A DNA stretch of 14,727 bases, from contig JAJRTK010000505.1 of assembly GCA_024278345.1 (NCBI GenBank), positions 1 through 14,727 of the forward strand, written 5' to 3'. Below are positions 1-14,727 of the stretch, in pieces. This stretch comes from a bacterium. GTDB lineage: Bacteria; CSSED10-310; JAJRTK01. The notes under the pieces were generated by a model. The model did no database searches, was not told the origin of the DNA, and saw only the letters and a program-made list of their open reading frames with translations. Made by a program: the position numbers and the translations under genes. Each line of letters opens with the position of its first letter. Position 1 is the stretch's first letter.

Positions 1-662
1 TCCATCACGTAGCCAACACCTCGAACCGTATGGATGAGCTTTGGTTCAAAATTCCGGTCAAGCTTGTTGCGCAAATACGAGATGTAGACCTCAACGACGT
101 TGGTGGAACTGTCGAAATCAATGCCCCACACGTGTTCGGCGATTTGTGTTTTTGTCACGATGCGTTCCGAATTTGCCAGAAGGTAGCGCAATAAGGAGTA
201 CTCCCGGCCCGTAAGCTTGATTTCCACGTCTCCCCGCCGGACCTTGCGGGAGACTGGATCAAGGGTCAGATCGGCCAAATGCGTCGCCGATTGGGTGACG
301 AGCTGTCCCCGGCGGGTCAAGGCGCGAATACGGGCCAGAAGCTCCGCAAATACGAAAGGTTTCGTCAGATAGTCGTCGGCGCCTAGGTCGAGGGCCTCCA
401 CTTTCGTCTCGATCTCATCCTTGGCGGTGAGCATGAGCACCGGCGTGTCGATGCCGAGCTCTCGGAGCTGACGAAGGACATGAATCCCGCTTATACCGGG
501 CAAGAGAAGATCGAGGAGAATGACGTCGTATTCTGCTTGCAGGCAGAACTCCAGCGCGCGATGGCCAGTTTCAGCCACATCGACACCGTATCTTTCCTCT
601 CGCAGTCCACGCTGGATGAATCGGGCAACCTTGGCATCGTCCTCGACGACCAGGATCTGCAT
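1..662 (-). CDS. OmpR/PhoB-family response regulator, 3' end cut by window edge
   Basis: This is a two-component response regulator, a cytoplasmic DNA-binding protein switched by phosphorylation from a sensor kinase. The first 220 codons are visible and the reading frame is still open at base 1. The receiver domain (about residues 1-115) starts MQILVVEDD and has the acidic pair D8/D9, phospho-acceptor D51 in LLDLLLPG, T79 in LMLTAKD and K101 in YLTKPF, so all catalytic positions are intact. A winged-helix effector domain (about 125-220) follows, with the OmpR-type stretches LTGREYSLL and VYISYLRNKL and ending VRGVGYVM, so only a few residues are missing. The ATG at 662 is preceded by AAGGA eight bases upstream. 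The gene is divergent from the tRNA gene. Its kinase would be expected beyond the left edge. The regulon cannot be told from the sequence. Confidence 0.95.
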   Translation of the reverse strand, partial: MQILVVEDDAKVARFIQRGLREERYGVDVAETGHRALEFCLQAEYDVILLDLLLPGISGIHVLRQLRELGIDTPVLMLTAKDEIETKVEALDLGADDYLTKPFVFAELLARIRALTRRGQLVTQSATHLADLTLDPVSRKVRRGDVEIKLTGREYSLLRYLLANSERIVTKTQIAEHVWGIDFDSSTNVVEVYISYLRNKLDRNFEPKLIHTVRGVGYVM

Positions 663-687
663 GTCCGGATTCCTTTTCCGCAACAAT

Positions 688-716
688 TTGCGATTTTCGG
701 GGTTCGAGGTTATAAA
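688..716 (+). promoter_or_regulatory. Sigma-70-like promoter of the tRNA-Ala gene
   Basis: A -35 box TTGCGA (688-693) and a -10 box TATAAA (711-716) are separated by exactly 17 bases. Transcription would begin near 723, a few bases before the mature tRNA 5' end at 730, which leaves a very short leader for RNase P to remove. The boxes lie in the 67-base gap between the divergent response-regulator start codon and the tRNA. Read by eye only. Confidence 0.7.
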
Positions 717-729
717 AGGCGTCTGGATC

Positions 730-802
730 GGGCGGTTAGCTCAGTTGGGAGAGCGCCGGAATCGCACTCCGGAGGTCGAGAGTTCGAGCCTCTTACCGTC
801 CA
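730..802 (+). tRNA. tRNA-Ala, anticodon CGC
   Basis: A full cloverleaf folds by hand. The acceptor stem 730-736 (GGGCGGT) pairs with 795-801 (ACCGTCC), and the discriminator A is at 802. The D stem is 739-742 with 751-754. The anticodon stem 756-760 with 768-772 encloses the loop ATCGCAC, giving anticodon CGC at 763-765. The T stem 778-782 with 790-794 encloses the loop TTCGAGC. Pair 3:70 is G-U (732 with 799), the classic alanine identity element, and A73 also fits alanine, so the anticodon and the stem agree. It decodes GCG. The CCA end is not encoded (803-805 is TCC), so it must be added by tRNA nucleotidyltransferase. Confidence 0.95.
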
Positions 803-810
803 TCCTTGAA

Positions 811-842
811 AGTCGCTGTCTTTTCAGCGGCTTTTTCTTTTG
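811..842 (+). terminator. Intrinsic terminator after the tRNA
   Basis: An 8-bp stem AGTCGCTG / CAGCGGCT (811-818 with 825-832, one G-U pair) has a six-base loop and is followed by a T-rich run at 833-842. It lies eight bases after the tRNA. Read on the other strand the same stem is preceded by A and followed by a few T residues, so it may also help end the convergent gene whose stop codon is at 874-876. Confidence 0.85.
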
Positions 843-873
843 GCGCCCGACCCCTGATTCTTTTTTCTGGATT

Positions 874-3800
874 CTAGCTTTTCCCGCTTGAAGGCTTGTT
901 TTTTTTCGCACTCACGGAAACCGGAAGAGGGCCGGGAGCCGATGCTTCTTCGAAAGACCCAAGGGCCTCCACGGTTTCCCGGACATGAATGAGGTCGAGC
1001 ACCGAAAGTGCCTGCACCGTGCGGATTGTAAGAAGCTGCGTGCTCCAGCTTTCGGGATGGCTGTAGATCTGCCGAATCAGGCCTGCGCCGCGCTCCGTGG
1101 CCTGGGTGGAAATCCCCTGATCTACAAGCTTTCTGATTCCCTTGCCAAGACCTTGATAATCAAGATGATAGGCAAGTCGGTATGGGAAGGCTTGCAGCCG
1201 GCTGAGCCCGGCCGGGAAACGGACAGCCAAGTAACTGGATATCGCGCGGGATTCCCGGTCGGCTCGCAAGAACAAAAAGGTCTTGAGCATCCGCTTCAAG
1301 AGTGTCGTCAAGAACCGAGCGGGATGAATTTCCAGAAGCCATCGGCGATTTCTTGCGATCTCTTGAAGGCTTTTGTCGATTCTTCCTTCGATCTGGAAGA
1401 GCTCCGCAATGCTCTTGTAGTTGATGCACCATGCGATACCGATGGCTCGGATGCCTTCCGCGGAGACACCGGCGGAAAGGTGAAGCCCTTTTTCCTTTGT
1501 TTGCTCCAGATACCCAAGCTCGACCAAAACTCGTGCCAGCCGTGCCACGGCCATCCGTCTCTTTTCCCGCAATTTTTCTAGCTCTTCCTTTTCACGGTTT
1601 TCCGCACGAACGAATCCCAAATCCTCCGCGTACACGGAAAAACTTCTTGGCGGCGGGGGGAGGCCGGGCAGGGCGAGTCCGAGGTACTCCGGGTCGAATT
1701 CGGCGCGAAGCCGCATGGCTTCAAAGAAAATGGGCCGGCGCATCCGGTCAAGTTTGCGGCGTACTGACTCGATGCTGGAAGTTGGGAGCTCCACGGATTC
1801 TGGAAGGAACTCGGGATTGAGGATGTCTCGCACACTGGTAGCCAAAAGACGAATGAGCCAGGGCAGGGAACGGAGCAGGATTCCGATGATGTAAAACGGT
1901 AACAGCACCACCCGTCCGCCCCAGAGGCGTGTCCTGTAGATGTTGTAGAGATTGATGGTTCTCACCCGTTTTGGAAGCCGCTCAAGAGGGTAGCTGCCGA
2001 AGATCCTTCGAATCATCGTGCGGCGGGCGACGGAGAGGGCTTCCAGAACTTCATCCCCGAATTCGTACTGAACCTCGAGATCAAGCTCTTCATCGACGGA
2101 CAAAAAGTGGAGGGCGTTGAAGGATGTGCTCACGAGGCGGTGGAACTGCCGGCGTTCCTTATCGACGTCACGTCTGAGCCTGCCGGTGGCTCGGCCGCTC
2201 ATTCGATCCAACCAATTGGACATGGCCGCCAGCTCCTCGCTGCTCGCACGATCCAGCTCCCTGAGAGGAATGCAGTAACGGTTGAATTCCAGGATAAGCT
2301 TTGCCGTTTGCTCCGCCACTGACGAGGTCAGAAGGTGAAACCAGATGTGAGGCCCAAGAACCGATTTTCTTCGGCTCAATTCCAGTCTTTCCAGGCGTTT
2401 GAGCTCTGCCTTGGTGTAGTTGAGCCTTTCGAGGCGGATGTTCATGAGCACGAGATTTCCCAAGAGCTGTTCCGCCGTCTTCGTGTCGGTAGAATGCAGG
2501 ACGGAACCGTCCAAGAAGTCTCGGTACAGAAGGAGGATGCGCTTCGTGTCGCACCGGGCGCGAAACGCACGGTGGTCATCAGGCGAAACCTGGGGCAGCT
2601 CTTGTCGCTGGAAAAGGCCAGGATCCGCCGGAAAAGTGCCGCGGAGGACCTTTTCAGGTTCCAGGACCCGGCAAGCGAGGATCTGACAGTCCCTTTTTCT
2701 CTTGTTTTCTTTCAGGGTCTCCAGAAGGTTCGTGTACTGAGCTTCCACGACGTTGTGGTAGACATCAGTGGCGTCGGAGGCAAGACGCCTCAGCCAAATG
2801 CCGGTTCCCATGAAGATCAAACAAATGGCCCCCACCACCACAAATCCTACGCCCAAAGTGCTGGTGAGGGATTTGGCGACGCTTTCCAGCACCTTGAAAT
2901 GCAGGAAGAGCACGTCAAGAACAATCTTGACCAGCAGAAAGATCCCGCCGAATAGGATGAGCCTCTTCGCCGGCCGTTGGCTCGAAGTCACCAGTGTGTT
3001 TCCCACCTTGTCCAGAAGGGCGGGGCCCGAGATGACGCCCTGAAGATCGGCGAACCAGTAAACCAAGGAAAGTAGCTTTTCCAGTACGTCACCAAGACGG
3101 CGGCCGGCCGAGGCGATGGTTTCCGATGAGGCTTCGTCACTGGCCCCTGCAAAGGTCCGGACGAGTGGCAGGCTGCGAAATCCTGGCAGGTTCATGTACT
3201 TGAGGACCGTGGCCAGTCTCTGGGTCAATCCAGGCCCCAAAAATAGCTCCACCTCGGCGCCGTTGAGATGCTTGAGGGAATCGATGAGGTCGTCGGCGTG
3301 AACCACCGGGAACCGGCTCCCACCTTTGGAGGCGGACTGAAGAGGTGAAGCCCCGGAGAGGCTGAGTTCGGGGCGGCAGGCCACTGCTTCCGATGCCAGG
3401 TCCAGCAAGGCGACAAGCTTGGGAAAAGAAATCTCTGGCACCAGGAGACGCAACCGCTGAAGGTTGCGGGTGCGAAGGCGCGGGAGCCTGCGGAGCGGGT
3501 CGGAAGCAGTTTCCGTTCCCCGAGTCCTAAAATCAAAGAGTAGAAGATTCGACTGAAGAATCGATCGGAATCGGTGAACGACTTGATCCATTCCACGAAG
3601 AAGGAAAATGAGCAACCGAACGCTTCGGAGAAGCGGTCTCGCAATCCGAACATACCGCACGAGTCTGGGAAGCCGGAACAAGCGAACCCATTCCAGATGC
3701 AGGGCATCGCCAGTGCCAAGTCCCCAAGTCAAAAGACCGATGGGAATGGAGGGCAAAAAGTCTACGAAGAAATGGCGGCGAATGTAGCGGAGAGGTTGAG

Positions 3801-5118
3801 GCGAATAAACCGTCCGCACACCGATCTCAATGAGCAGAAAAAGGCAGATGATCCCATCAACCAAATCAAGCTTGTTTCGCAGGTCCGGGTCGAGCTCGAC
3901 GGACATGTCCACGGCAAGCAGGCCAACGAGCACGAAAATGAAGAAGAAGACGAGGCTTTCGGTCACCCTAACCCAACGTTTGCCAAACCGGCGAACGAGA
4001 CGAGCCTCCAGTTGTTGCTCCAGGAGCTCGTCCATCACTCTTCGCCGCTGTTGCTTGAGCTGGCGAATGGACCGCCGCTTTGGCCGGTTGACGGGAGCCG
4101 ACCGGTCTATTGCGCCCAACATCCAGTCCGTGAGCTCCAGGAAGCACTTGAGGATGGGAATGCCTTCGGGGTTCGGACGATCCGTGGCGGTCGTATAGAT
4201 CTCATGGCCATGCTCGAGAAGGCCGTGAGCCAGTTCTTCCACCGCTGGCGCAATGGCCCGATCCGGTTGGCGAAGCTCGCCTTCAATGGAGCTGCGGAGC
4301 TTTTGCTCAATAGGGATAAGCCGCGGAGTTTCTTCTGGTCCCGTGCCTTCCCAAGTAGTGGCGTCGCCAAGTTTTTTTTGAAGCACTAGAGCGTCAATTT
4401 CTCCGCGGATCATGGAGCTGTCAAAGAGCAGATCGGCCACCTCCGGAAGCGACTCATCACCCTCTGACGACAGAAGCTGTTCCGCCCTGCTGCAGGCCAG
4501 TTTTTGCTGTGCCCTGGCCATGGAAACCCGGATCTCGAAGAGCTTCTTCGTTGTTTGTTCCACTGAGAGCAGGTCCAGAAGAGACGTTGATTGGTTTTGT
4601 GCTCCCCGTGCTCCGGCCAAAGAGGGAGACTCTTTTTCCAGGCGTTTGGCAGCATTCTTCGTCTCCCTCGTAAGCCAGGAACAAACCCTCTTGGCATCGG
4701 CCAAGACCCAGTCCCGTCGATCTCCTTCCAGGGCCATGAACAAAAGGTGAAGCGTGTAGGAACGCTCTTCGAGCATCAACAGGCCAGCGAATTCCTCGTG
4801 AAACGACTGGAACGTGGCGTGGCTCATGGTCTGTCGCCGAGCCTCAAGCTCTTCCAACATCTTTTCGAGGAGCTCCGCCGTCTCCGGAGATCGGTGTTCC
4901 TCCACATAGGAAAGCGCCCTTGCACGGAGAGCGGTCAAGAGGTCAAGGAGCTCTGGTTCCTGCTGAAAACCCTCGGGATCCTCGAAGCCCAAAGCTTCAT
5001 CATGCGCCGAAATCCAAGCATCCACGCTCCACCCGGCGGCAACGACCAGTTCTTCCAGAGAAACACTGGGCCGAGTGATAACCTGGTGTATCCGTTGGCG
5101 AATTGTTGTGAAGGCCAT
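874..5118 (-). CDS. Very large membrane protein with a poreless voltage-sensor-like S1-S4 domain, family unknown
   Basis: I do not recognise this protein of about 1,414 residues. Residues 1-380 are mostly soluble, helical and charged. Residues 387-510 look like a voltage-sensor domain: S1 (387-405), S2 (417-437, LIEIGVR with E431), S3 (449-468, VDFLPSIP with D453) and an S4 with arginines 479, 482, 485, 488, 491 and 494, then 498 and 501. E431 and D453 sit where voltage sensors keep their S2 and S3 counter-charges. No S5-pore-S6 and no TVGYG-like filter follow, but a soluble region, two membrane segments (718-741, 753-775), another hydrophobic stretch (1067-1095) and a charged C-terminus with a possible coiled coil (1174-1205). 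The ATG at 5118 is chosen because AGGGAG lies 12 bases upstream and residues before it overlap rpmH or run through intergenic repeat DNA. An in-frame ATG a little upstream (MGWGR) is possible. The gene stands alone, divergent from rpmH. Voltage sensing is an inference. Confidence 0.85.
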   Translation of the reverse strand: MAFTTIRQRIHQVITRPSVSLEELVVAAGWSVDAWISAHDEALGFEDPEGFQQEPELLDLLTALRARALSYVEEHRSPETAELLEKMLEELEARRQTMSHATFQSFHEEFAGLLMLEERSYTLHLLFMALEGDRRDWVLADAKRVCSWLTRETKNAAKRLEKESPSLAGARGAQNQSTSLLDLLSVEQTTKKLFEIRVSMARAQQKLACSRAEQLLSSEGDESLPEVADLLFDSSMIRGEIDALVLQKKLGDATTWEGTGPEETPRLIPIEQKLRSSIEGELRQPDRAIAPAVEELAHGLLEHGHEIYTTATDRPNPEGIPILKCFLELTDWMLGAIDRSAPVNRPKRRSIRQLKQQRRRVMDELLEQQLEARLVRRFGKRWVRVTESLVFFFIFVLVGLLAVDMSVELDPDLRNKLDLVDGIICLFLLIEIGVRTVYSPQPLRYIRRHFFVDFLPSIPIGLLTWGLGTGDALHLEWVRLFRLPRLVRYVRIARPLLRSVRLLIFLLRGMDQVVHRFRSILQSNLLLFDFRTRGTETASDPLRRLPRLRTRNLQRLRLLVPEISFPKLVALLDLASEAVACRPELSLSGASPLQSASKGGSRFPVVHADDLIDSLKHLNGAEVELFLGPGLTQRLATVLKYMNLPGFRSLPLVRTFAGASDEASSETIASAGRRLGDVLEKLLSLVYWFADLQGVISGPALLDKVGNTLVTSSQRPAKRLILFGGIFLLVKIVLDVLFLHFKVLESVAKSLTSTLGVGFVVVGAICLIFMGTGIWLRRLASDATDVYHNVVEAQYTNLLETLKENKRKRDCQILACRVLEPEKVLRGTFPADPGLFQRQELPQVSPDDHRAFRARCDTKRILLLYRDFLDGSVLHSTDTKTAEQLLGNLVLMNIRLERLNYTKAELKRLERLELSRRKSVLGPHIWFHLLTSSVAEQTAKLILEFNRYCIPLRELDRASSEELAAMSNWLDRMSGRATGRLRRDVDKERRQFHRLVSTSFNALHFLSVDEELDLEVQYEFGDEVLEALSVARRTMIRRIFGSYPLERLPKRVRTINLYNIYRTRLWGGRVVLLPFYIIGILLRSLPWLIRLLATSVRDILNPEFLPESVELPTSSIESVRRKLDRMRRPIFFEAMRLRAEFDPEYLGLALPGLPPPPRSFSVYAEDLGFVRAENREKEELEKLREKRRMAVARLARVLVELGYLEQTKEKGLHLSAGVSAEGIRAIGIAWCINYKSIAELFQIEGRIDKSLQEIARNRRWLLEIHPARFLTTLLKRMLKTFLFLRADRESRAISSYLAVRFPAGLSRLQAFPYRLAYHLDYQGLGKGIRKLVDQGISTQATERGAGLIRQIYSHPESWSTQLLTIRTVQALSVLDLIHVRETVEALGSFEEASAPGPLPVSVSAKKNKPSSGKS

Positions 5119-5223
5119 GGTGCCAGGCGACTCCCTAGTGTTTCTGATTCTGCCCCATCCCATCTGGTTAGCCGTGGGACTCCCGCAGGGCATAATTCGA
5201 GAAAACCGCTTTTTTTTCTTTGA

Positions 5224-5281
5224 GTTACCTTCCGCTCGCGGCGGCGGCAATCCGTCCGCCGCCACTCGCATTTCACCGCCC
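5224..5281 (-). repeat. Palindromic intergenic repeat, copy A
   Basis: On the minus strand this contains an exact 22-base core (5242-5263) that begins GGCGGCGGACGG and ends ATTGCCGCCG, also found at 13020-13041. The core and its edge form a hairpin: GGCGGCGG (5240-5247) pairs perfectly with CCGCCGCC (5256-5263) around an 8-base loop. Aligned by eye to copy B without gaps, about 47 of 58 positions agree, so the similarity goes beyond the palindrome. It is compatible with a REP/RAYT-type or other dispersed intergenic element. Confidence 0.65.
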
Positions 5282-5385
5282 CGGGACAGGGTTGACTGCC
5301 CTGAATGCGTACCACAACCCACTCGTTCAACATACCGTCTTTCTTGACAGGCGCCGAAACGGTCTGGGATGACAGGATCCTGTTC

Positions 5386-5414
5386 TTGAGCATTGGGAAC
5401 GAATGGCCTATACT
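5386..5414 (+). promoter_or_regulatory. Sigma-70-like promoter of rpmH and the housekeeping cluster
   Basis: A -35 box TTGAGC (5386-5391) and a near-consensus -10 box TATACT (5409-5414) have 17 bases between them. The predicted start near 5421 gives a leader of about 40 bases to the rpmH ATG. No other promoter this good was seen between rpmH and rsmG, so it may drive much of the downstream cluster. Confidence 0.75.
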
Positions 5415-5460
5415 CTGCCTTTCCCACACTTGGCGGCACCTGTTCAACAAGGAGAAACCG

Positions 5461-5604
5461 ATGAAACGGACATTTCAGCCAAACAACCGCCGACGGCGAA
5501 AAAAGCACGGGTTCCGGGCCAGGATGAAGACAAAATCTGGGCGCCGCGTGATCCAGAGGAGACGAGCAAGAGGCCGCACACGATTGAGCGCCTCTGATTC
5601 CTAA
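5461..5604 (+). CDS. rpmH: 50S ribosomal protein L34
   Basis: L34 is a small, very basic protein of the large ribosomal subunit that binds 23S rRNA. The 47-residue product begins [19 protein letters not shown] and continues through [20 protein letters not shown], matching the L34 family along its whole length. A usual L34 has 44-47 residues, so it is complete. The start at 5461 is supported by AAGGAG at 5449-5454, six bases upstream, and by the promoter at 5386-5414. A longer frame open from 5305 is only upstream read-through. rnpA follows after 88 bases, the usual pairing of these genes, which links ribosome production to tRNA 5' processing. Confidence 0.98.
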
Positions 5605-5692
5605 ACAAGCCCAGAATGAACGTGTGATGAGCTTGAGTTGTGCCATGCCGAAAGTGACCGTGAACAGTCTACCAAAGAGTTGACCCAAAACC

Positions 5693-6043
5693 ATGGGTTT
5701 GCCACGTAAGCATCGCCTGACCCATCGTCGGGATTTCCAACGCCTTTATGCCCGCGGGCGGAAATTAGTCCGCCGAGAACTTGTTGTTTTTGTTACGCCC
5801 GGAAAAGCTGTGGTGCCAAGACTCGGGTTGACTGTATCGAAGAGAGTCGGCAATGCCGTGGCGCGGAATCGAGTCAAGAGAAGACTCCGCGAGTCTTGGC
5901 GCGGGATCATCACTCAGCTGCCTCCGGTGGACATTGTTGTCGTCGCACGCCCGCCTCTTTCCAATGCTCAATACCGCCGCTTCTTGGAAGCCGCCGAACG
6001 ATTTCGATGTTGGTTCGAGCGAATAACATTCTCAGACAGATGA
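5693..6043 (+). CDS. rnpA: Ribonuclease P protein component
   Basis: This is the protein cofactor of the RNase P ribozyme. It helps the catalytic RNA bind the 5' leader of precursor tRNAs in the cytoplasm. The 116-residue product has the family's N-terminal pattern ([14 protein letters not shown]) and the RNA-binding signature [10 protein letters not shown] at residues 58-67. Length is normal. The ATG at 5693 has only a weak purine tract (AAAGAG) about 13 bases upstream, so translation may be inefficient. The in-frame codons just upstream run into a stop, which excludes a longer start. The stop TGA overlaps the yidD start codon (ATGA), implying translational coupling. The catalytic RNA gene rnpB was not seen here. 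Confidence 0.96.
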
Positions 6044-6261
6044 AGGCTGTCTGGATCTGGTTGGCCATCGCGCCAATCCGATTCTACAAACTTTTCATCT
6101 CCCCGATCCTTCCTCCCGCCTGCCGATACAGTCCGACGTGCTCCATGTATGCCATGGAGGCTATCCGGCGTCATGGGGTTTTCCGCGGTTTTTTCCTGGC
6201 TGTTTATAGGCTTCTGCGGTGTAACCCTTTCAGTCGAGGCGGTTACGATCCCGTCCCTTGA
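6040..6261 (+). CDS. yidD: Membrane protein insertion efficiency factor YidD
   Basis: YidD is a small membrane-associated protein that assists YidC and Sec in inserting inner-membrane proteins. The 73-residue product has an amphipathic, hydrophobic N-terminus ([20 protein letters not shown]) and then the family core [17 protein letters not shown], with the cysteine pair CRYSPTC, a later RLLRCNPF and the terminal GGYDPVP. All hallmark residues are present. The start at 6040 overlaps the rnpA stop by four bases. An upstream in-frame ATG at 6010 would add ten residues without family support. yidC follows after 48 bases, as in most bacteria. Confidence 0.95.
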
Positions 6262-6309
6262 CACTTCGCCAACACCGGTCATCGATGCGGTTGGCATGGA
6301 GAAGTTAGC

Positions 6310-8040
6310 GTGGAAAAAAGGCTATTCCTCGCGGTCATATTATCTATGGCCGTCCTGATGATTTGGCAGGTTCTCTTTCCCCCAATTCCCATGGAGGAAC
6401 CCGTTGGGCCCATGCCTCCGAAGCTGGCTGCGACTCCCTCGCCTGGAACAGATGCCAAGTCGCCTTTTCAGCCGTCGCCCAAACCTTCTCAGGCGAGGCC
6501 CCCTGTACCCATGGGAATTCCCATGGAGTCAGACGTCGAGGAGCGGGTGGTGACCATCGACACGCCGCTCTACCGTGCGAGAGTTACAAATCGAGGAGCC
6601 TGCCTGCTGAGTCTTCGCCTCAAAAACTATCGTCTCCATCCCGATACCCCAGAATTGGTGGAAATGATTCCTCAACCCGACGGGATTGCCAAGTATTTGG
6701 AAGAGGAATACTCGGAAACCGATCGCGCGCAAAAGTTAAGCCTTCTCCCCTCAGAGGTCAAAAAAATGTGGCGGCCCCTGGCTGTCAGAATCACGGGGAC
6801 TGAAGAAGGACTTGAGCAAAACCAGATTGTCTTTAGCCTCGAAGCTCCAAGCGATGCCAGCCTTTTTCGACTGGATGGGGGCGAAGACGTAGTTCTGACC
6901 TTCTCCCATCTGGATTCAACAGGGCTTCGGCAAACAAAGCGTGTGACTTTCTACGCTGACTCCTACCTTCAGAAAGTCGAGCTCGATTTCACCAACGACG
7001 GAGACGGCCCCCTGCTCATCACTCCCGAGATGGTGGTGACCGAAGGCTACCGCGCCGCGGGAATCCCGCATTCGACCCGATACAATGTCGCCTCGGCGGT
7101 TTATGGCGCCGTGGCAAAGAGATACTCTCTGACTCTTCCAGATCCAGGCCAGCGGCAGCGGGAATCCGTCACTGGCCTCCAGTGGGCCGCCATGGAAGAC
7201 CTCTATTTCTTCACCGGCCTCTTGCCGCGCTCGCCCGCTGGCACAGTCATTGCCGAGCAAACAGTCATGGGCTTGCCCCGTATCTTGATCCAGTTTGACC
7301 CGCTTCAGATCCAGCCTGGAATGTCAGCCGAAATGGCGGTCGATGCTTACTTGGGGCCCAAGGAATACGATGGGCTGGTGGAAATCGGGAGCGATGTTGA
7401 TCGCATTATCGACTATGGAATGTTTCGCATACTAGCCCTTCCGGCTATCGCAATCCTGAAGTTTCTCAATGGGATCGTTCATAGTTTTGGGTTCGCCATC
7501 ATCATCTTGACCCTGCTTCTCAAGGTTGTGACCTATCCGCTGAACATGGCGCAATACAGCTCCATGAACAAAATGAAGCTCCTGGCTCCAGAGCTCGAGA
7601 AAATTAAGGCAAAATACAAGGACGCCAAGGATCCCCAGCGCTATAACCAAGAGATGATGCAACTCTATAAAGTCCATGGCGTCAATCCGGCGGCGAGCTG
7701 TTTACCCATGTTCGTTCAGATGCCGATTTTTCTTGCTCTCTATAGCGGATTGCTCTATTCCATAGACCTCAGACAAGCACCGTTTCTCTATATCCCCGAC
7801 CTTTCGAACCCCGATCCATACTTCATTTCACCGCTGCTCATGGGCGTCAGTATGCTCGCTCAACAGCGGTTGAGTCCAAGTCCCGCGGATCAGTCTCAGG
7901 CTACGATGATGAAGGTGCTCCCTATCGTGTTTACGGGCATTTTCCTTTTCGCCCCCGCCGGGCTGGTCATCTATTGGCTCATGAACAACGTGCTATCCAT
8001 TGCCCAACAATACTGGATGCAGAAAACAGGCAAGGCGTGA
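6310..8040 (+). CDS. yidC: Membrane protein insertase YidC (GTG start)
   Basis: YidC inserts and folds inner-membrane proteins, alone or with SecYEG. The 576-residue product begins with an uncleaved signal-anchor (about residues 5-22), then a proline-rich tether (about 19-70), a large periplasmic domain (about 75-360) and a conserved C-terminal insertase core (about 380-570) with five hydrophobic segments. The core shows YPLNMAQYSSMNKMK, VNPAASCLPMFVQMPIF and GLVIYWLMNNVLSIAQQYW. The long periplasmic domain is the Gram-negative form. GTG at 6310 is chosen because GGAG lies at 6298-6301 with eight-base spacing. The ATG at 6297 is in another frame. The groove position held by arginine in E. coli (R366) is lysine here (K405), so the positive charge is kept. 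Confidence 0.97.
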   Translation: MEKRLFLAVILSMAVLMIWQVLFPPIPMEEPVGPMPPKLAATPSPGTDAKSPFQPSPKPSQARPPVPMGIPMESDVEERVVTIDTPLYRARVTNRGACLLSLRLKNYRLHPDTPELVEMIPQPDGIAKYLEEEYSETDRAQKLSLLPSEVKKMWRPLAVRITGTEEGLEQNQIVFSLEAPSDASLFRLDGGEDVVLTFSHLDSTGLRQTKRVTFYADSYLQKVELDFTNDGDGPLLITPEMVVTEGYRAAGIPHSTRYNVASAVYGAVAKRYSLTLPDPGQRQRESVTGLQWAAMEDLYFFTGLLPRSPAGTVIAEQTVMGLPRILIQFDPLQIQPGMSAEMAVDAYLGPKEYDGLVEIGSDVDRIIDYGMFRILALPAIAILKFLNGIVHSFGFAIIILTLLLKVVTYPLNMAQYSSMNKMKLLAPELEKIKAKYKDAKDPQRYNQEMMQLYKVHGVNPAASCLPMFVQMPIFLALYSGLLYSIDLRQAPFLYIPDLSNPDPYFISPLLMGVSMLAQQRLSPSPADQSQATMMKVLPIVFTGIFLFAPAGLVIYWLMNNVLSIAQQYWMQKTGKA

Positions 8041-8064
8041 CGCTCGCCTCTGAGGAGGAAAACC

Positions 8065-8937
8065 ATGCGTAAGATGATAGAAGACACAGGAACCACACCA
8101 GAAGAGGCGATCAACAAAGTTCTCGCGAAGTTGGGGGTGTCTCGCGAGCAGGTGGCGATTGAGATTCTCGAACATGGCAGCGAAAGCTCTTTGTGCCGTC
8201 GCCCGGCTCGCGTACGGGTCGTTCACGATCCTTCCTCGCTCGTCGCCATCCGACCCGTCCAGGCTGCTCAGGCGCCACTCCAAGAGACTCTGCCAGAGGA
8301 TGCGGCCGAAGAAGAAGCTCCCCTTGCAGCCGAAAAAAACGAGCCTCCTCCAGAAAATTCTACTTCTGACGAAACCGAGGAGTCTGAAACAACAGGTCAT
8401 GCGGAACCCACCGCACCCCCGGAACGGGAATCGGTGTTGGAATCGGATGACGTGGACGGAGATCTGTCAAACGCACAAGAAGATGAACCTGCCGATCTGT
8501 TAGACTTGGCTCTGGACATCGTGTCGGACCTCTTAGATCACATCGGGATCGACGCCTACCTCGATGCATCGCGGACCAACAGCAAGATCTACATCGATAT
8601 CGAAAGCGATCTAGGTGGCCTCCTTATCGGGAAACAGGGCAAGAACCTCGACGCACTCCAGCACGTCGTGAATCGTATTTTCGCCAGAGAGAATGAAGAA
8701 CGCACCACCATTGTCCTCGACACGGAAGACTATCGCCGCCGCCACAGGGTCTCCTTGGAAGACCTGGCCTTCCGCGTGGCCGACCGGGTTCGGGGAACCG
8801 GAAGACGGTCGGTTCTCAAGGAGATGAACCCCTACGAGAGGCGCCTCGTCCATCTGGCGCTCAAAAACGACCCTGATATTGAAACCATCAGCGAAGGAAA
8901 CGGCTTTTTGAAGAAAATCCGGATCCAACTCCGCTAG
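8065..8937 (+). CDS. jag: Jag/KhpB-type RNA-binding protein (Jag_N, KH, R3H)
   Basis: Jag (also KhpB, EloR or SpoIIIJ-associated protein) is a cytoplasmic single-stranded RNA-binding protein. Homologues in Firmicutes influence cell elongation and post-transcriptional control. The product has 290 residues: a Jag_N domain (about 1-50, with TPEEAINKVLAKLGV), a long acidic, low-complexity linker (about 70-145), a KH domain with the GxxG loop GKQG at 189-192, and an R3H domain with R259 and H263 in NPYERRLVHLAL, ending in SEGNGFLKKIRIQLR. The ATG at 8065 has a strong GAGGAGG about seven bases upstream. It follows yidC by 24 bases and precedes mnmE by 6, its standard context. Confidence 0.94.
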   Translation: MRKMIEDTGTTPEEAINKVLAKLGVSREQVAIEILEHGSESSLCRRPARVRVVHDPSSLVAIRPVQAAQAPLQETLPEDAAEEEAPLAAEKNEPPPENSTSDETEESETTGHAEPTAPPERESVLESDDVDGDLSNAQEDEPADLLDLALDIVSDLLDHIGIDAYLDASRTNSKIYIDIESDLGGLLIGKQGKNLDALQHVVNRIFARENEERTTIVLDTEDYRRRHRVSLEDLAFRVADRVRGTGRRSVLKEMNPYERRLVHLALKNDPDIETISEGNGFLKKIRIQLR

Positions 8938-8943
8938 CGCCTG

Positions 8944-10311
8944 ATGGACACAATTGCCGCAATCGCGACACCTGCCGGTTATGGAGGAATCGCGGTCATC
9001 CGCGTCAGCGGTACCAAAGCCCTAGACATCTGTTCCAGAAGTTTCGCACCTCGGCGGCGCCGACCTCTGGATTGCTCCGATGACCGCCGCGTCGTTCTGG
9101 GGGAGGTCCGGCGTGGGTCACAGACCATTGACCGGTGTGTTGCCAGCCTCTTCCTTGGCCCCAACAGTTATACCGGTGAAAATGTCGTTGAGCTTGCGTG
9201 CCACGGAAGCCCTTTCGTGGCCAGCCATGTTCTCGACACCTTGCTGGAAAATGGTGCGCGGCTGGCAGAGCCAGGCGAGTTTACGCGCCGCGCCTTTGAA
9301 AACGGAAAGCTCGACCTTGTGCAGGCCGAGGCTGTCCTGGATCTCATTTTGGCCCATGGGGAACAGAGTGCGCGGCTGGCCCTGAGCCAGCTTAGTGGAC
9401 AGCTTTCGCGCCGGATCGAGGGCTTTCAACAAGAATTGATCACCGCTGTTGCCGAGATTCAGGCTTTTCTGGAGTTTCCCGACGAAGATCTTTCCACGGA
9501 GACTCCCCAGGCCCTGTTGACCCGCCTCAAGACCACGTCCAAAGGGATCGAGGAACTGCTGGAAACCTATGACGAGGGACGTCAGATTCAACAAGGGTAT
9601 TCCTGTGTTTTGGTCGGCGACGTCAACGTGGGGAAGAGCACTCTAGCCAACGCCCTCCTGGGCGCGGAGCGAAGCATCGTCACTCCCCTGCCCGGGACGA
9701 CGCGGGATCTGGTGGAGTCGAGACTCAAACTCCAGGGCATTTCAGTTCTTCTTTACGACACGGCGGGTCTGCGCAACAGCGAGTGCCCCGTGGAGGCCGA
9801 AGGAGTTCGGCGAACCCTGGGGGCCGTGTCCAGCGCGGACTTGGCGATACTTGTCATCGACGCCGCCGCAAAGGACCCTGGTTGGGAGGATCGTCTGCTT
9901 TTCGAGAAGGCCACCCAACCAAAGCAACACTGTATCGTGGCGTGGAATAAGGTGGATCTCCGGCATGATCCGCCTCCGGGCGAGTTTTTGGGGATCCCGG
10001 TGGTGCCCGTATCGGCTTTGACTGGCACGGGGCTAGAGGAGCTGCGACACCAGATCAAGAAGATTCTCCTGACTCAGCACACATCGTCAGGGGAGCGCCT
10101 CCTTCTTTCCAATACTCGGCAAAAGAACGCCTTGCAGCGGGCTCACAAGGCGATGGCTAGGGCGATGGAGATCTTGCCTTCCCGCGGTGACTACGAGCTG
10201 GCCGTAGAAGATCTCCAGGTGGCATTGACAGAGTTTGGGCGCGTCTTGGGTAAGGTGACGCCTGACGAAATCCTAGATCAGGTGTTCAGCCGGTTTTGCA
10301 TCGGCAAGTAA
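8944..10311 (+). CDS. mnmE: tRNA modification GTPase MnmE
   Basis: MnmE works with MnmG to install carboxymethylaminomethyl (or aminomethyl) groups on wobble uridine 34 of certain tRNAs, using a folate one-carbon unit and GTP. The 455-residue product has the N-terminal folate-binding domain (DTIAAIATPAGYGGIAVIRV and GEFTRRAFENGKLD), a helical domain with an inserted G domain, and the C-terminal CIGK (452-455) carrying the essential cysteine. G-domain motifs are G1 GDVNVGKST (from 225), G2 TTRD, G3 DTAG (272-275) and G4 NKVD (335-338). G1 has valine where most MnmE proteins have proline (GxPNxGKS), but GKS is intact. There is no clear Shine-Dalgarno. The six-base gap to jag suggests coupled translation. 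Confidence 0.97.
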   Translation: MDTIAAIATPAGYGGIAVIRVSGTKALDICSRSFAPRRRRPLDCSDDRRVVLGEVRRGSQTIDRCVASLFLGPNSYTGENVVELACHGSPFVASHVLDTLLENGARLAEPGEFTRRAFENGKLDLVQAEAVLDLILAHGEQSARLALSQLSGQLSRRIEGFQQELITAVAEIQAFLEFPDEDLSTETPQALLTRLKTTSKGIEELLETYDEGRQIQQGYSCVLVGDVNVGKSTLANALLGAERSIVTPLPGTTRDLVESRLKLQGISVLLYDTAGLRNSECPVEAEGVRRTLGAVSSADLAILVIDAAAKDPGWEDRLLFEKATQPKQHCIVAWNKVDLRHDPPPGEFLGIPVVPVSALTGTGLEELRHQIKKILLTQHTSSGERLLLSNTRQKNALQRAHKAMARAMEILPSRGDYELAVEDLQVALTEFGRVLGKVTPDEILDQVFSRFCIGK

Positions 10312-10338
10312 CGGGCGATTGTGGAACGGGGTCGCGGA

Positions 10339-12231
10339 ATGGGTCACGGTCATTACGAAATTGCTGTCGTGGGTGCCTGCCATGCTGGGTGCGAAGCTGC
10401 CCTGGCTTCCGCCAGAATGGGGCATCAAACACTCATGATTACCCTGAACCTCGACACCGTCGGGCAGATGAGCTGCAATCCCGCCATCGGCGGCCTGGGA
10501 AAGGGCCACTTGGTTCGAGAAATCGATGCCCTGGGTGGTGAAATGGCTCGCGCCGCTGACTCCACCGCCATCCAGTTTCGCATGCTCAATACCCGCAAAG
10601 GCCCAGCCGTCCAGGCCGGTCGCGTCCAGTCTGATCGCGCCGCGTACCGACGGCGGATGCGGAGGGTCTTGGAAGAAACGACAAACCTGTACATTCTCCA
10701 GGCGGAGGTCGCGCACTTTCTTCTTTATGATGACCGGATCACCGGACTGGAAACCACCCTTGGAGAACAGTTTAGCGTTGGAGCCATCATCGTGGCCACC
10801 GGAACGTTTCTTGGGGGCTGCCTCCATATCGGCGAGCGGCAACTTCCGGCGGGCCGCGCCGGAGAACGCCCGGCCATCGAGCTTGCGGAGTTCTACCGCC
10901 GGCTCGGTTTCCAGGTGAGCCGCCTGAAGACCGGGACGCCACCCAGGCTCGACGGGCGGACCATTGACTACTCCGCCTGCCGGAAACAGCCTGGAGACCC
11001 CGAGCCCACTCCCTTTTCCTATTCCACCGGCGATCTCTCCGGGATGGAACAGATTCCTTGCCATCTCACCCAGACCAACGAGACCACCCACGAGATCATT
11101 CGCCAGAACCTCGCTCGGTCCGCGGTTTTCAGCGGCGCGATCCAGGGAACCGGTCCACGGTACTGCCCTTCCATCGAAGACAAAATCATCCGTTTCGCCG
11201 GCAAGCCTTCCCACCAAATCTTCCTGGAACCTGAAGGCCGAACCACCCATGAAGTCTACGTCAATGGAATCTCCACCTCCCTGCCCATCGACGTGCAGCA
11301 CCAGGTCGTGGCCTCCATCCGAGGCCTGGAAGAAGCCCACATCCTCCGCCCGGGGTACGCCATAGAATACGATTTTATCCAGCCCACGGAGCTTCTTCCC
11401 ACCCTGGAAACCCGGAAAATTCGCGGCCTCTATCATGCTGGTCAGATCAACGGAACCACCGGTTACGAGGAAGCCGCCGCACAGGGGTTTTGGGCGGGCG
11501 TGAACGCCGCCCTGGCGCTCCGCAAGGCCCCACCCATGATTCTGGGGCGCCATGAGGCATACATGGGCGTTCTCATCGATGATCTCGTGACTCGGGGCGT
11601 GGACGAGCCCTACCGGATGTTCACCTCACGGGCCGAATACCGCCTCTTGCTCCGGTTTGACAATGCTGACCAGCGACTCATGGATATCGGCCATCGCCTG
11701 GGTCTGATTTCTGCCCGCGAGCAGAAGCGGTGCCACGAGAAACGGCGGAAAATCCAGATCACTCTGGATCTTCTTCGGGCCCAGAAGATAACGCCCTGTC
11801 AGGAAGTCAACCGGCGCCTCGCGGAACTTCATCAACCGATGCTCCGCGTTCCCGCCAATCTAGCCACCCTCCTTCGACGCCCGGCATTCGGTTACCAGGG
11901 GCTGCGTCTTCTTCACCCAACCCTGCCGGAGCTCGATCCCGAAGTCCGCCGTCAAGTAGAGATCCAGGCCCGGTATGAGGGATATCTTCAGCGCCAGGAA
12001 GAACAAGTCCAGAAGATGCTCCGCCACGAATCCATGCGCCTTCCGCCCGACCTCGATTACCTCTCCATGGCGGAACTCTCCACCGAAGTCCGCCAAAAAC
12101 TCCACCGCCATCGGCCCGACACCTTGGGGCAGGCCTCCAGAATCTCGGGCATGACGCCAGCCGGCTTGAACGTCCTTTTCCTCTTGGTCCACAAACGAAA
12201 CCGCCAAACCTCCCAAGCTATCGCCAATTGA
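10339..12231 (+). CDS. mnmG: tRNA U34 modification enzyme MnmG (GidA), FAD/NADH-dependent
   Basis: MnmG is the flavoprotein partner of MnmE in forming cmnm5U/nm5U at position 34 of tRNA. The 630-residue product matches the family length. It has an N-terminal FAD-binding fold, the conserved C46 in [16 protein letters not shown]276 in [13 protein letters not shown] (both positions match the catalytic cysteines of the family), [13 protein letters not shown], and a C-terminal helical part ending [16 protein letters not shown], used for MnmE and tRNA contact. I take ATG 10339 because it puts the nucleotide motif at the usual distance from the start. GTG at 10321 is possible and would add six residues. 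An oddity is the dinucleotide motif GACHAG (12-17), where most members have GGGHAG or GAGHAG. The rest is intact, so the gene is probably functional. Confidence 0.96.
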
Positions 12232-12240
12232 ACTTGTCCC

Positions 12241-12915
12241 ATGACCGATCCCCATTCCAACCTGGTCCGCCAAATCGTGCGCCTGGCCGATGACGTCCAC
12301 CGTCTGCTGCCCGATATCGATATCACGCGGGTGCAGCGAGCCCAGATACTGCGCTACGTCACCGCCCTCCGGGATTACAACCGGATCCACCGAGTCACCG
12401 GGACCAGGACCGCCGAGGACATGCTGCGCCTCCACGTCGCCGACAGCATCGGCCTCCTGCCTTGGATGACGCCTCCACTCGTGGATGTGGGGAGTGGCGC
12501 CGGGCTGCCCGGCATCCTCCTGAAGATCCTCCAGCCCGATTGGGAGGTCACCCTGGTGGAGCCCCGCAAGAAGGCTTCCGCCTTCATCGCCTGGATGATC
12601 GCCGAGCTGGGGTTGCGGAACGTGCGGCTCCTGGATCGGCGGGCCGAGGCCGTGCGGATCGGGGATCTGCTGAATCCCGACGGGGCTTCCACGCTGGTGG
12701 CCAAGGGATTCGGCGACACCCGTCGTCTTCGGGAGGTGGCGGGCCACTTATTGGCTCCGTCGTTCCTGGAAGGCGATTCCGCGCCCCCGCTCTCCGTGGT
12801 CGTGCCGTCGGGGAACCCCGAGCCGGTCCATTCCGGGGAAGAGGTGCATCCACACCCCCTCATGGGGGACCGGTTCCTCCACGTGATCCGGATTCCTCCA
12901 GAGAACCGTTTTTAG
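12241..12915 (+). CDS. rsmG: 16S rRNA (guanine-N7)-methyltransferase RsmG, somewhat divergent
   Basis: RsmG (GidB) transfers a methyl group from S-adenosylmethionine to N7 of G527 in 16S rRNA. In several species its loss gives low-level streptomycin resistance. The 224-residue product has the SAM-binding signature DVGSGAGLPGI (residues 82-92), the preceding HVADSIGLLPWM and the following LVEPRKKASAFI and DRRAEAV, all in family order. Two spots differ from the consensus. The usual N-x-x-x-NLT region reads NRIHRVTG, and the segment that normally reads like vsRAf is VAKGF. The C-terminus is also variable, but the frame is intact and ends normally. It starts nine bases after mnmG with only a poor Shine-Dalgarno and is the last gene of the cluster. 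Confidence 0.85.
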   Translation: MTDPHSNLVRQIVRLADDVHRLLPDIDITRVQRAQILRYVTALRDYNRIHRVTGTRTAEDMLRLHVADSIGLLPWMTPPLVDVGSGAGLPGILLKILQPDWEVTLVEPRKKASAFIAWMIAELGLRNVRLLDRRAEAVRIGDLLNPDGASTLVAKGFGDTRRLREVAGHLLAPSFLEGDSAPPLSVVVPSGNPEPVHSGEEVHPHPLMGDRFLHVIRIPPENRF

Positions 12916-13001
12916 GCTTCGAGCCGCCTTGGGCCGGCAGGAACTGGTCTTGGGAGGAATCCAGGTCGTGGGGCGCCTTGAGGGTAGTGAGCTTGGTTGA
13001 A

Positions 13002-13059
13002 GGGCGATGATAGGGGAGGGGCGGCGGACGGATTGCCGCCGACCCGACCGGAAGACGAC
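13002..13059 (+). repeat. Palindromic intergenic repeat, copy B
   Basis: This shares the exact 22-base core (13020-13041) with copy A at 5242-5263 but lies in the opposite orientation. Here the stem is six base pairs (13022-13027 with 13036-13041) around the same 8-base loop ACGGATTG. Flanks of about 18 bases on each side also resemble copy A, giving about 47 identities in 58 by eye. It lies in the gap just after rsmG, so the two copies bracket the housekeeping cluster. Confidence 0.65.
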
Positions 13060-13083
13060 AAGAAAAGAGGCTCAAGGGAGAGC

Positions 13084-13100
13084 TTGCCGCGCTACGGCAA
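13084..13100 (-). terminator. Possible weak terminator hairpin after the mutase gene
   Basis: A perfect 6-bp stem TTGCCG / CGGCAA with a five-base loop lies 14 bases past the minus-strand stop codon at 13115. No T run follows at once. A short CTCTTTTCT stretch comes about 13 bases further on. It could slow or end transcription, or protect the 3' end, but it is not a classic intrinsic terminator. Confidence 0.3.
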
Positions 13101-13114
13101 CCCTCGGGCTTGCC

Positions 13115-14727
13115 TTACATGCTTCTTCGGTACTGGCCGCCGACCTGGAAGAGGGCTTGTGTGATTTGGCCCAGGCTGCAGCATTTCACGGTTTCCATGA
13201 GTTCGGCGAAGAGGTTGTCGCCCTCTAGGGCCACGCGTTTGAGGCGTTCCAATGCGGGTCCGCTGCGCTGGGCGTGGCGTTGGTGGAAAGCCTGGACGCC
13301 CTGGATTTGGGATTGTTTGTCTTCGTCGGTGGATCGGGCCATCTCGATCTCTTCCACGCGGCCGACTTTTCGTTGGTCGATGAAGGTGTTGATTCCGACG
13401 ATGGGCAGCTCGCCGCTGTGCTTCTTTTGTTCGTATTCCAGGGATTCTTCCTGGATCTTGGAGCGTTGGTACATGAGTTCCATGGCGCCCAGGACGCCGC
13501 CGCGGTGGGAGAGGCGTTCGAACTCGGTCAGGACGGCTTCTTCCACGACGTCGGTGAGCCATTCGAGGAAGTAGGAGCCTTGGAAGGGGTTTTCGTTTTT
13601 GAGGAGCCCGAACTCGCGGTTGAGGATGAGCTGGATGGCGACGGCTCGGCGGACGGATTCTTCGGTGGGTGTTGTGATGGCTTCGTCGTAGGCGTTGGTG
13701 TGGAGGCTGTTGCAGTTGTCGGCGATGGCGTAGAGGGCCTGGAGGGTGGTGCGGATGTCGTTGAAGTCGATCTCTTGGGCGTGGAGGGAGCGGCCGGAGG
13801 TTTGGATGTGGTACTTGAGTTTTTGACTCCGCTTGCCGGCTCCATAGAGATCCCTCATGGCGATGGCCCAGATGCGCCTTGCGACTCGGCCGATGACCGT
13901 GTATTCGGGGTCGATGCCGTTGGAGAAGAAGAAGGAGAGGTTGGGGGCGAACTGGTCGATGGGAAGGCCTCGGGCCAGGTAGTATTCGACGAAGGTGAAG
14001 CCGTTGGCCAGGGTGAAGGCGAGCTGGGTGATGGGGTTGGCCCCGGCCTCGGCGATGTGGTAGCCGGAGATGGAGACGGAGTAGAAGTTGCGGACGCCGT
14101 TTTCGCAGAAGTATTCCTGGATGTCGCCCATCATTTTGAGGGCGAAGTCGGTGGAGAAGATGCAGGTGTTTTGGGCCTGGTCCTCCTTGAGGATGTCGGC
14201 TTGGACGGTGCCGCGGACGGTTTTGAGGGTGTCGTTGCGGATTTGCCGGTATTCGTCGGGTGGCAGGAGTTGGTCGCCGCTGACGCCCAGGAGTCCGAGG
14301 CCGGTGCCGTCGTGGCCGTCGGGGAGGTTGGGAGCGCGGTAGACCGGTGTGTCCGGGGCAAGCTGGGCGATCTTCTTCTTGGCCTCTTCCCACCGGCCGG
14401 TTTCCCGGAGCCTTTTTTCGACGTTTTGGTCGATGGCCGTGTTGAGAAACATCGCCAGGATCATGGGTGCCGGGCCGTTGATGGTCATGGAGACGCTGGT
14501 GGAGGGTGCGCTGAGATCGAATCCCGAGTAGAGACGCTTGGCGTCGTCCAGGGTGGCGACGCTGACCCCCGAGTTTCCGATCTTTCCGTAGATATCGGGC
14601 CGGAGGTCGGGATCGCGGCCGTAGAGGGTCACCGAATCGAAGGCCGTGGAGAGGCGGGCCATGGGGTAGTCCTTGGCCAGGTAGTGGAACCTTCGGTTCG
14701 TCTGTTCCGGCGGGCCTTCGCCGGCGA
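13115..14727 (-). CDS. B12-dependent acyl-CoA mutase, IcmF-like catalytic part, 5' end cut by window edge
   Basis: This is the C-terminal 536 or so residues of an adenosylcobalamin-dependent acyl-CoA mutase, which rearranges the carbon skeleton of acyl-CoA thioesters by a radical mechanism. The frame stays open to base 14727, and an internal methionine at 14662 is not a credible start because the family sequence ([19 protein letters not shown]) runs across it. Stretches such as [64 protein letters not shown] and the end [19 protein letters not shown] fit fused isobutyryl-CoA mutase (IcmF) better than classical methylmalonyl-CoA mutase. No cobalamin-binding DxHxxG lies at the C-terminus, as expected if the B12 and G-protein (MeaI-like) domains come first, beyond the window. 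A stand-alone large subunit of a related mutase (for example pivalyl- or 2-hydroxyisobutyryl-CoA type) is the alternative. Substrate is uncertain. Confidence 0.93.

Follow-up and report, generated by a model that had tools for sequence, protein, structure and literature searches.

A bacterial protein family with a predicted KvAP-type voltage sensor joined to a putative effector module in place of a canonical channel pore

Voltage-sensor domains (VSDs), comprising helices S1–S4, are best known from channels. In the archaeal Kv channel KvAP (PDB 1ors, 2kyh) the VSD goes straight into an S5-P-S6 pore, and the other prokaryotic six-transmembrane (6-TM) channels (NavAb/NaChBac, Kv; Pfam PF00520) have a homologous VSD half followed by the same kind of pore. 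Ci-VSP carries a VSD on a large effector with no pore, and Hv1 likewise has a VSD without a separate pore domain. VSDs outside channels also include that of the sperm Na+/H+ exchanger SLC9C1 (PMC10620092, PMC13095418), where the domain regulates a non-channel partner in the same chain (PMC10620092). A 2023 review states, from database searches, that prokaryotic VSDs always come with a pore selective for K, Na or Ca, and that Hv1-type channels are not known from bacteria or archaea (PMC10377628). Here we analyse a stretch of 14,727 nucleotides from a bacterium of the lineage CSSED10-310 (contig JAJRTK010000505.1, positions 1 to 14,727, forward strand; hereafter the window), whose minus strand carries a gene for a 1414-residue protein with a VSD. 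Its sequence and predicted structure suggest that this is probably a voltage-sensing membrane protein other than a canonical channel, in which voltage would switch a C-terminal module.

A sequence-only reading of the window had placed an S1–S4 module at positions 3590–3965, about residues 385–509. With translation beginning at MAFTTI, the residues it named are exact: LIEIGVR at 429 (E431), VDFLPSIP at 452 (D453) and all eight S4 arginines. Several lines of evidence indicate that the module is a real VSD. Searches of the PDB returned the isolated KvAP sensor as the best match both for the whole protein and for residues 372–540, and with the latter it aligned from S1 through S4 (E 2e-5), placing Leu428 on a Leu, D404 on the S1 glutamate, and R482, R485, R488 and R491 on S4 arginines. 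In KvAP numbering, D421–E431 fall on D62–D72, D453 on E93, and the four arginines on R117, R120, R123 and R126, so that the two domains are alike in countercharge spacing as well as in S1–S4 sequence and the charge-transfer Leu. A profile of the VSD region from 17 family members matched Kv3.1 at 4.3e-8, followed by Kv, Nav and HCN sensors. The Pfam Ion_trans family matches residues 386–500 (E 3e-4 for the whole protein) with 20.6 bits, below its cut-off of 25 bits; the protein is the sole Ion_trans match in its genome, and 16 of the 17 family members scanned match. The spacing of basic residues is weak evidence by itself, as a run of six basic residues at i+3 also arises in 56 of 5000 shuffled versions of the protein, which is rich in Arg. 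Weak Pfam matches to CATASP, SfLAP and GvpK were below cut-off and not common to the members, and were dismissed.

The predicted structure agrees with these matches. An AlphaFold2 (AF2) model of residues 367–1075 (709 residues; mean pLDDT 78.7, pTM 0.65), based on an alignment of 41 sequences, has single helices for S1 (380–406) and S2 (411–438) and paired helices for S3 (442–454 and 460–469) and S4 (472–480 and 483–516), with pLDDT mostly 80–93 over S1–S2 and 70–86 over S4. Foldseek placed both KvAP sensor entries at the top with probability 1.00, at E-values of 0.1 that are unimpressive for a 709-residue model. VIA-align superposed the KvAP sensor with a Z of 11.6 and an rmsd of 3.2 Å over 130 of 132 residues. 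Among the 50 matches listed, nearly all are VSD-bearing proteins, Ci-VSP (Z 9.1) being one of them. High Z values can arise by chance for helical bundles; we nevertheless accept the VSD fold because one homologous family dominates the list and the sequence evidence agrees. The arginine-rich segment is accordingly modelled within a VSD and not as a soluble amphipathic helix, the outcome that the earlier reading had set against its own proposal. Matches of the non-VSD part (vinculin, HAMP fusions) are long-helix noise, and the comparison barely probed that part. Judged by sequence and model together, residues 373–520 are a genuine, complete KvAP-type S1–S4 VSD.

Conservation was tallied over 41 family sequences. 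Position 421 is D in all of them, position 431 is E in 29 and D in 12, and position 453 is acidic in 40 (D 32, E 8); the S1 position 404 is D or E throughout. The charge-transfer position 428 is F in 33 and L in 8, the window protein having L, as at the aligned KvAP position. R501 is invariant and R488 is present in 39. Over residues 476–494 the fraction of basic residues averages 0.86 in the S4 phase, counted at every third position, against 0.01–0.02 in the other two phases, and the S4 of the window protein has six arginines in a row at i+3, plus 498 and 501. The expectation that E431, D453 and the S4 arginines would be conserved in homologues is thus borne out. An insertion of tens of residues, predicted to be extracytoplasmic, occurs in the S1–S2 loop of three relatives (L031, L050 and L054) and is clearest in L031.

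Identity to the window protein is 35% in the VSD, 39% in a downstream membrane hairpin and 37% in the core that follows it, against 16% in the N-terminus, 24% in the linker and 25% in the C-terminus. A VSD conserved on a par with the hairpin and core, between an N-terminus and a linker that drift, fits a sensor under functional constraint. A purely structural VSD, kept to anchor the protein in the membrane or to let it oligomerise after voltage sensing was lost, might account for the reduced S4 of a few relatives; it is harder to reconcile with this pattern of constraint or with countercharges and an S4 phase kept over deep divergence, and we regard it as quite improbable.

The same columns bear on whether the VSD itself could pass protons, with the C-terminal part being regulatory or anchoring, an alternative that the sequence-only reading had left standing. 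A VSD without a pore is indeed the architecture of Hv1, and the universally acidic residue 404 lies in S1, but this residue aligns with the S1 glutamate of KvAP, and S1 residues 389–403 contain no acidic residue in the 41 sequences, as judged without a direct alignment to Hv1. The S4 tryptophan, described as totally conserved in Hv channels (PMC10377628), is not conserved in the S4 columns of the family, which also differs from Hv1 in its huge C-terminal part, and no gating-pore current is known from VSDs that are assembled correctly and whose S4 ladder is intact (PMC10651576). The Hv1-like alternative is weakened by these observations to the point of being very improbable.

Profile searches and the model confirm that the predicted protein lacks the canonical pore of a 6-TM voltage-gated channel. 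In all nine matching members that were examined individually, the Ion_trans match ends at profile position 109–125 of 241, which corresponds to the end of the VSD, and the family members examined gave no profile match to S5-P-S6. No selectivity-filter motif recurs, TxG-type strings being found in only 2 of the 41 sequences and at unrelated places. Hydropathy of the 1414-residue protein marks S1–S3-like segments at about 378–470, a later pair at 715–783 and a third segment at 1063–1097. The next membrane helix begins at residue 698, about 180 residues past S4 (which ends at 516), rather than after a short S4–S5 linker; where KvAP enters its pore directly, the window protein has first this linker, then a tight hairpin and then a large module. 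The pore-less character claimed in the earlier reading therefore stands with respect to canonical pores, although that reading did not mention the membrane hairpin at 698–805. Its description of a VSD attached to soluble regions is likewise right for the large, cytoplasmic-looking remainder but passes over this conserved second membrane element.

Could the hairpins of several subunits instead line an ion path gated by the VSD, giving a voltage-gated channel with a non-canonical pore? Four VSD helices and two more give the 6-TM count, and glycines 724, 756, 763 and 773 of the hairpin are invariant, reminiscent of the packed or pore-lining helices of MscS-type channels. However, the turn between the two hairpin helices has 5 residues in the model, which leaves no room for a P-loop. 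The missing filter motif and the wide spacing between S4 and hairpin also argue against a channel of this kind, as does the persistence of the hairpin-plus-core module in proteins without any VSD (see below). We consider such a channel unlikely.

The hairpin leads into a putative effector module whose core is marked by invariant residues (G871, D878, T881, Q884–N888, G922, P923, W926 and F927). To search for this module without the sensor we used a VSD-free profile of residues 640–1075. Three weak matches to it are proteins of about 430–570 residues that start with the hairpin and retain the DGA-H-TD-K and LR-D-EY motifs. Profile–profile comparison by hhalign matches them to residues 660–1395 with a probability of 99.6 and an E-value of 5.6e-24, with a gap where the third hydrophobic segment is missing. 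Of the three genomes that encode these short homologues, one also has the full-length form and two are without a VSD of this family. A Pfam scan of two of the short proteins gave no significant match, and the short forms seem to make up a protein family of their own that has not been described. Their existence indicates that the effector module is separable from the sensor, much as PTEN exists without a VSD. Fusion alone does not show regulation, but of the comparative evidence this separability speaks most strongly for control of the module by the sensor, which resembles a regulatory addition to a hairpin-plus-core module. The suggestion of the sequence-only reading that the VSD may couple membrane potential to the soluble regions is strengthened accordingly, while coupling remains something that we infer.

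The protein is no singleton: it belongs to a sizeable family, most of which is in Planctomycetota, with some members in Myxococcota-labelled bacteria. Within the window's own phylum, the eight genomes searched gave no close relative, and two weak matches there are partial and unconvincing. A broader scan recovered full-length relatives in two genomes of a small phylum, all five of whose genomes proved to have one. An alignment-based scan of 84,980 species yielded 17 loci, from genomes labelled as Planctomycetota, Brocadiia, Myxococcota or Deltaproteobacteria, Verrucomicrobia, and from Candidatus Uabimicrobium amorphum; these labels are the submitters' and uncertain, and most of the sequences come from metagenome-assembled genomes (MAGs). 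The Uabimicrobium relative sits on a complete chromosome (NZ_AP019860.1), and this, the many Planctomycetota and the five of five genomes of another phylum argue that the genes are real and not an artefact of one MAG. The VSD-free profile has matches in 56 of 392 Planctomycetota genomes (one with the short form alone); in a Myxococcota-labelled phylum it finds three full-length forms and one short form in 282 genomes, and in a Verrucomicrobia-labelled phylum only the starting genome of 288. All 24 additional genes that this query recovered with upstream sequence also encode the VSD. The twelve genomes checked for copy number as a rule carry a single full-length gene each. Viral contigs contain no relative, and in a tree the window sequence was not placed with support.

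These observations lead us to favour, with moderate confidence, a first prokaryotic family of voltage-controlled proteins other than channels, in which a KvAP-type sensor sits on a membrane-anchored effector module that has not been described before and also occurs by itself, and membrane potential would directly switch a bacterial activity other than ion conduction. In such a protein, S4 would move through the S2/S3 charge-transfer site when the membrane potential changes; this displacement would be passed on by the continuous S4 helix (483–516) and the linker to the hairpin, and would switch the C-terminal module in its activity or its assembly. The logic would be that of the voltage-sensing phosphatases with an unrelated putative effector. 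Several points weigh against this proposal. VSD folds are also found in weakly voltage-dependent channels, and fold and charges therefore do not prove sensing. The S4 arginines are reduced to short i+3 runs in four relatives (L042, L059, L060 and L070), where sensing may be lost or altered. Neither a catalytic motif nor a fold was recognised in the putative effector, and the gene neighbourhoods of the family reveal no partner common to the loci.

Searches with the remainder of the protein help to separate the family from known systems. From about residue 690 onward, nothing convincing was found in Pfam, NCBIfam, PADLOC, PHROGs or, by sequence, the PDB; the defence-system (PADLOC), phage-family (PHROGs) and NCBIfam searches gave no useful match. 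No phosphatase was matched in Pfam at E 0.1 in 17 members, profiles of the core and C-terminus had no PDB match, and the family differs from Ci-VSP in lacking a PTEN-like match, in its extra membrane hairpin, in being bacterial and in an effector unrelated to known families. It differs from SLC9C1 in that the members scanned have no Pfam or NCBIfam match to an exchanger or a cyclic-nucleotide-binding domain. The family profile of the N-terminal region had no PDB match below E 0.18. PDB sequence matches of the core, C-terminus and N-terminus, including a haemagglutinin coiled coil, were at chance level. The coordinates of all features are collected in Table 1.

Table 1. Positions of the voltage-sensor gene, the parts of its product and the short homologues (window coordinates unless a locus is named).
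Feature	Position	Strand	Basis
Gene of the 1414-residue voltage-sensor protein, stop codon included	874..5118	-	open frame; putative start
N-terminal region, residues 1–372	4003..5118	-	poorly conserved (mean identity to window)
VSD, residues 373–520	3559..4002	-	KvAP VSD match, Kv-channel profile match, AF2 model, VIA-align to 1ors_C
S1 helix, acidic residue 404 (E 33, D 8 of 41)	3901..3981	-	AF2 helix, column tally
S2 helix; D421, E431, charge-transfer position 428	3805..3888	-	AF2 helix, conservation, KvAP alignment
S3 helices, residues 442–469; D453, P456, P459	3712..3795	-	AF2 helices, conservation
S4 arginine repeat, residues 476–501 (R479, 482, 485, 488, 491, 494, 498, 501)	3616..3693	-	phase tally, 41 sequences
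Linker domain from S4 to hairpin, residues 521–690	3049..3558	-	identity to window; mostly helical in AF2, parts pLDDT <50
Conserved helical hairpin, residues 698–736 and 742–805 (hydrophobic core 715–783)	2704..3027	-	hydropathy, invariant columns, AF2 helices
Conserved core of putative effector, residues 801–1075, motif YRDFLDGSVLHSTDTKTAEQLLGN	1894..2718	-	invariant columns
Third hydrophobic segment, residues 1063–1097, possibly a membrane-associated helix	1828..1932	-	hydropathy
C-terminal region, residues 1076–1400, conserved RKxxRMR, LRA-FD-EYLGL and QxLxxLD motifs	919..1893	-	
Short VSD-less homologue	L081:634-2262	-	
Short VSD-less homologue	L082:2172-3800	-	
Short VSD-less homologue	L079:1210-2493	+	

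The full minus-strand open reading frame spans 874–5694, with the rpmH/rnpA region on the other strand facing its initial 192 codons. We prefer the putative start at MAFTTI (M193 of the long frame, window 5118) because it matches the N-termini of relatives and avoids that opposite-strand region. The gene is divergent from a core cluster at 5461–12915 (rpmH, rnpA, yidD, yidC, jag, mnmE, mnmG and rsmG) whose order is typical next to a replication origin. Downstream on the same strand is a gene for an OmpR-type response regulator (3–686, minus strand), with a tRNA-Ala (CGC) on the opposite strand between the two (730–802). In two Planctomycetota loci (L030:5122-9094 and L031:4626-8585) the VSD gene comes directly after genes for a secretin (GspD-type) and a T2SSE ATPase (GspE), at gaps of 49 and 3 bases, an arrangement absent from the other loci examined. 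A subtilase gene is a neighbour at L035, and the remaining loci have different neighbours.

A literature search returned no earlier description of pore-less prokaryotic VSDs, with most subscription papers outside its coverage, and the family as predicted here contradicts the statement that every prokaryotic VSD has a pore (PMC10377628). The sensor and the logic are already known; what would be new is a bacterial setting for the logic of voltage-sensing phosphatases, together with a new putative effector. Membrane potential serves bacteria in energetics and signalling, and the literature searched records no dedicated voltage sensor in them outside channels. If several bacterial phyla share a VSD family without a pore, this would call a eukaryotic origin of uncoupled VSDs into question, offer a tractable system for S4-to-effector coupling and bring an undescribed effector module to light; the Uabimicrobium amorphum member, from a complete genome, is easy to name and study. 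The sensor may thus let bacteria turn membrane voltage into an action other than conduction.

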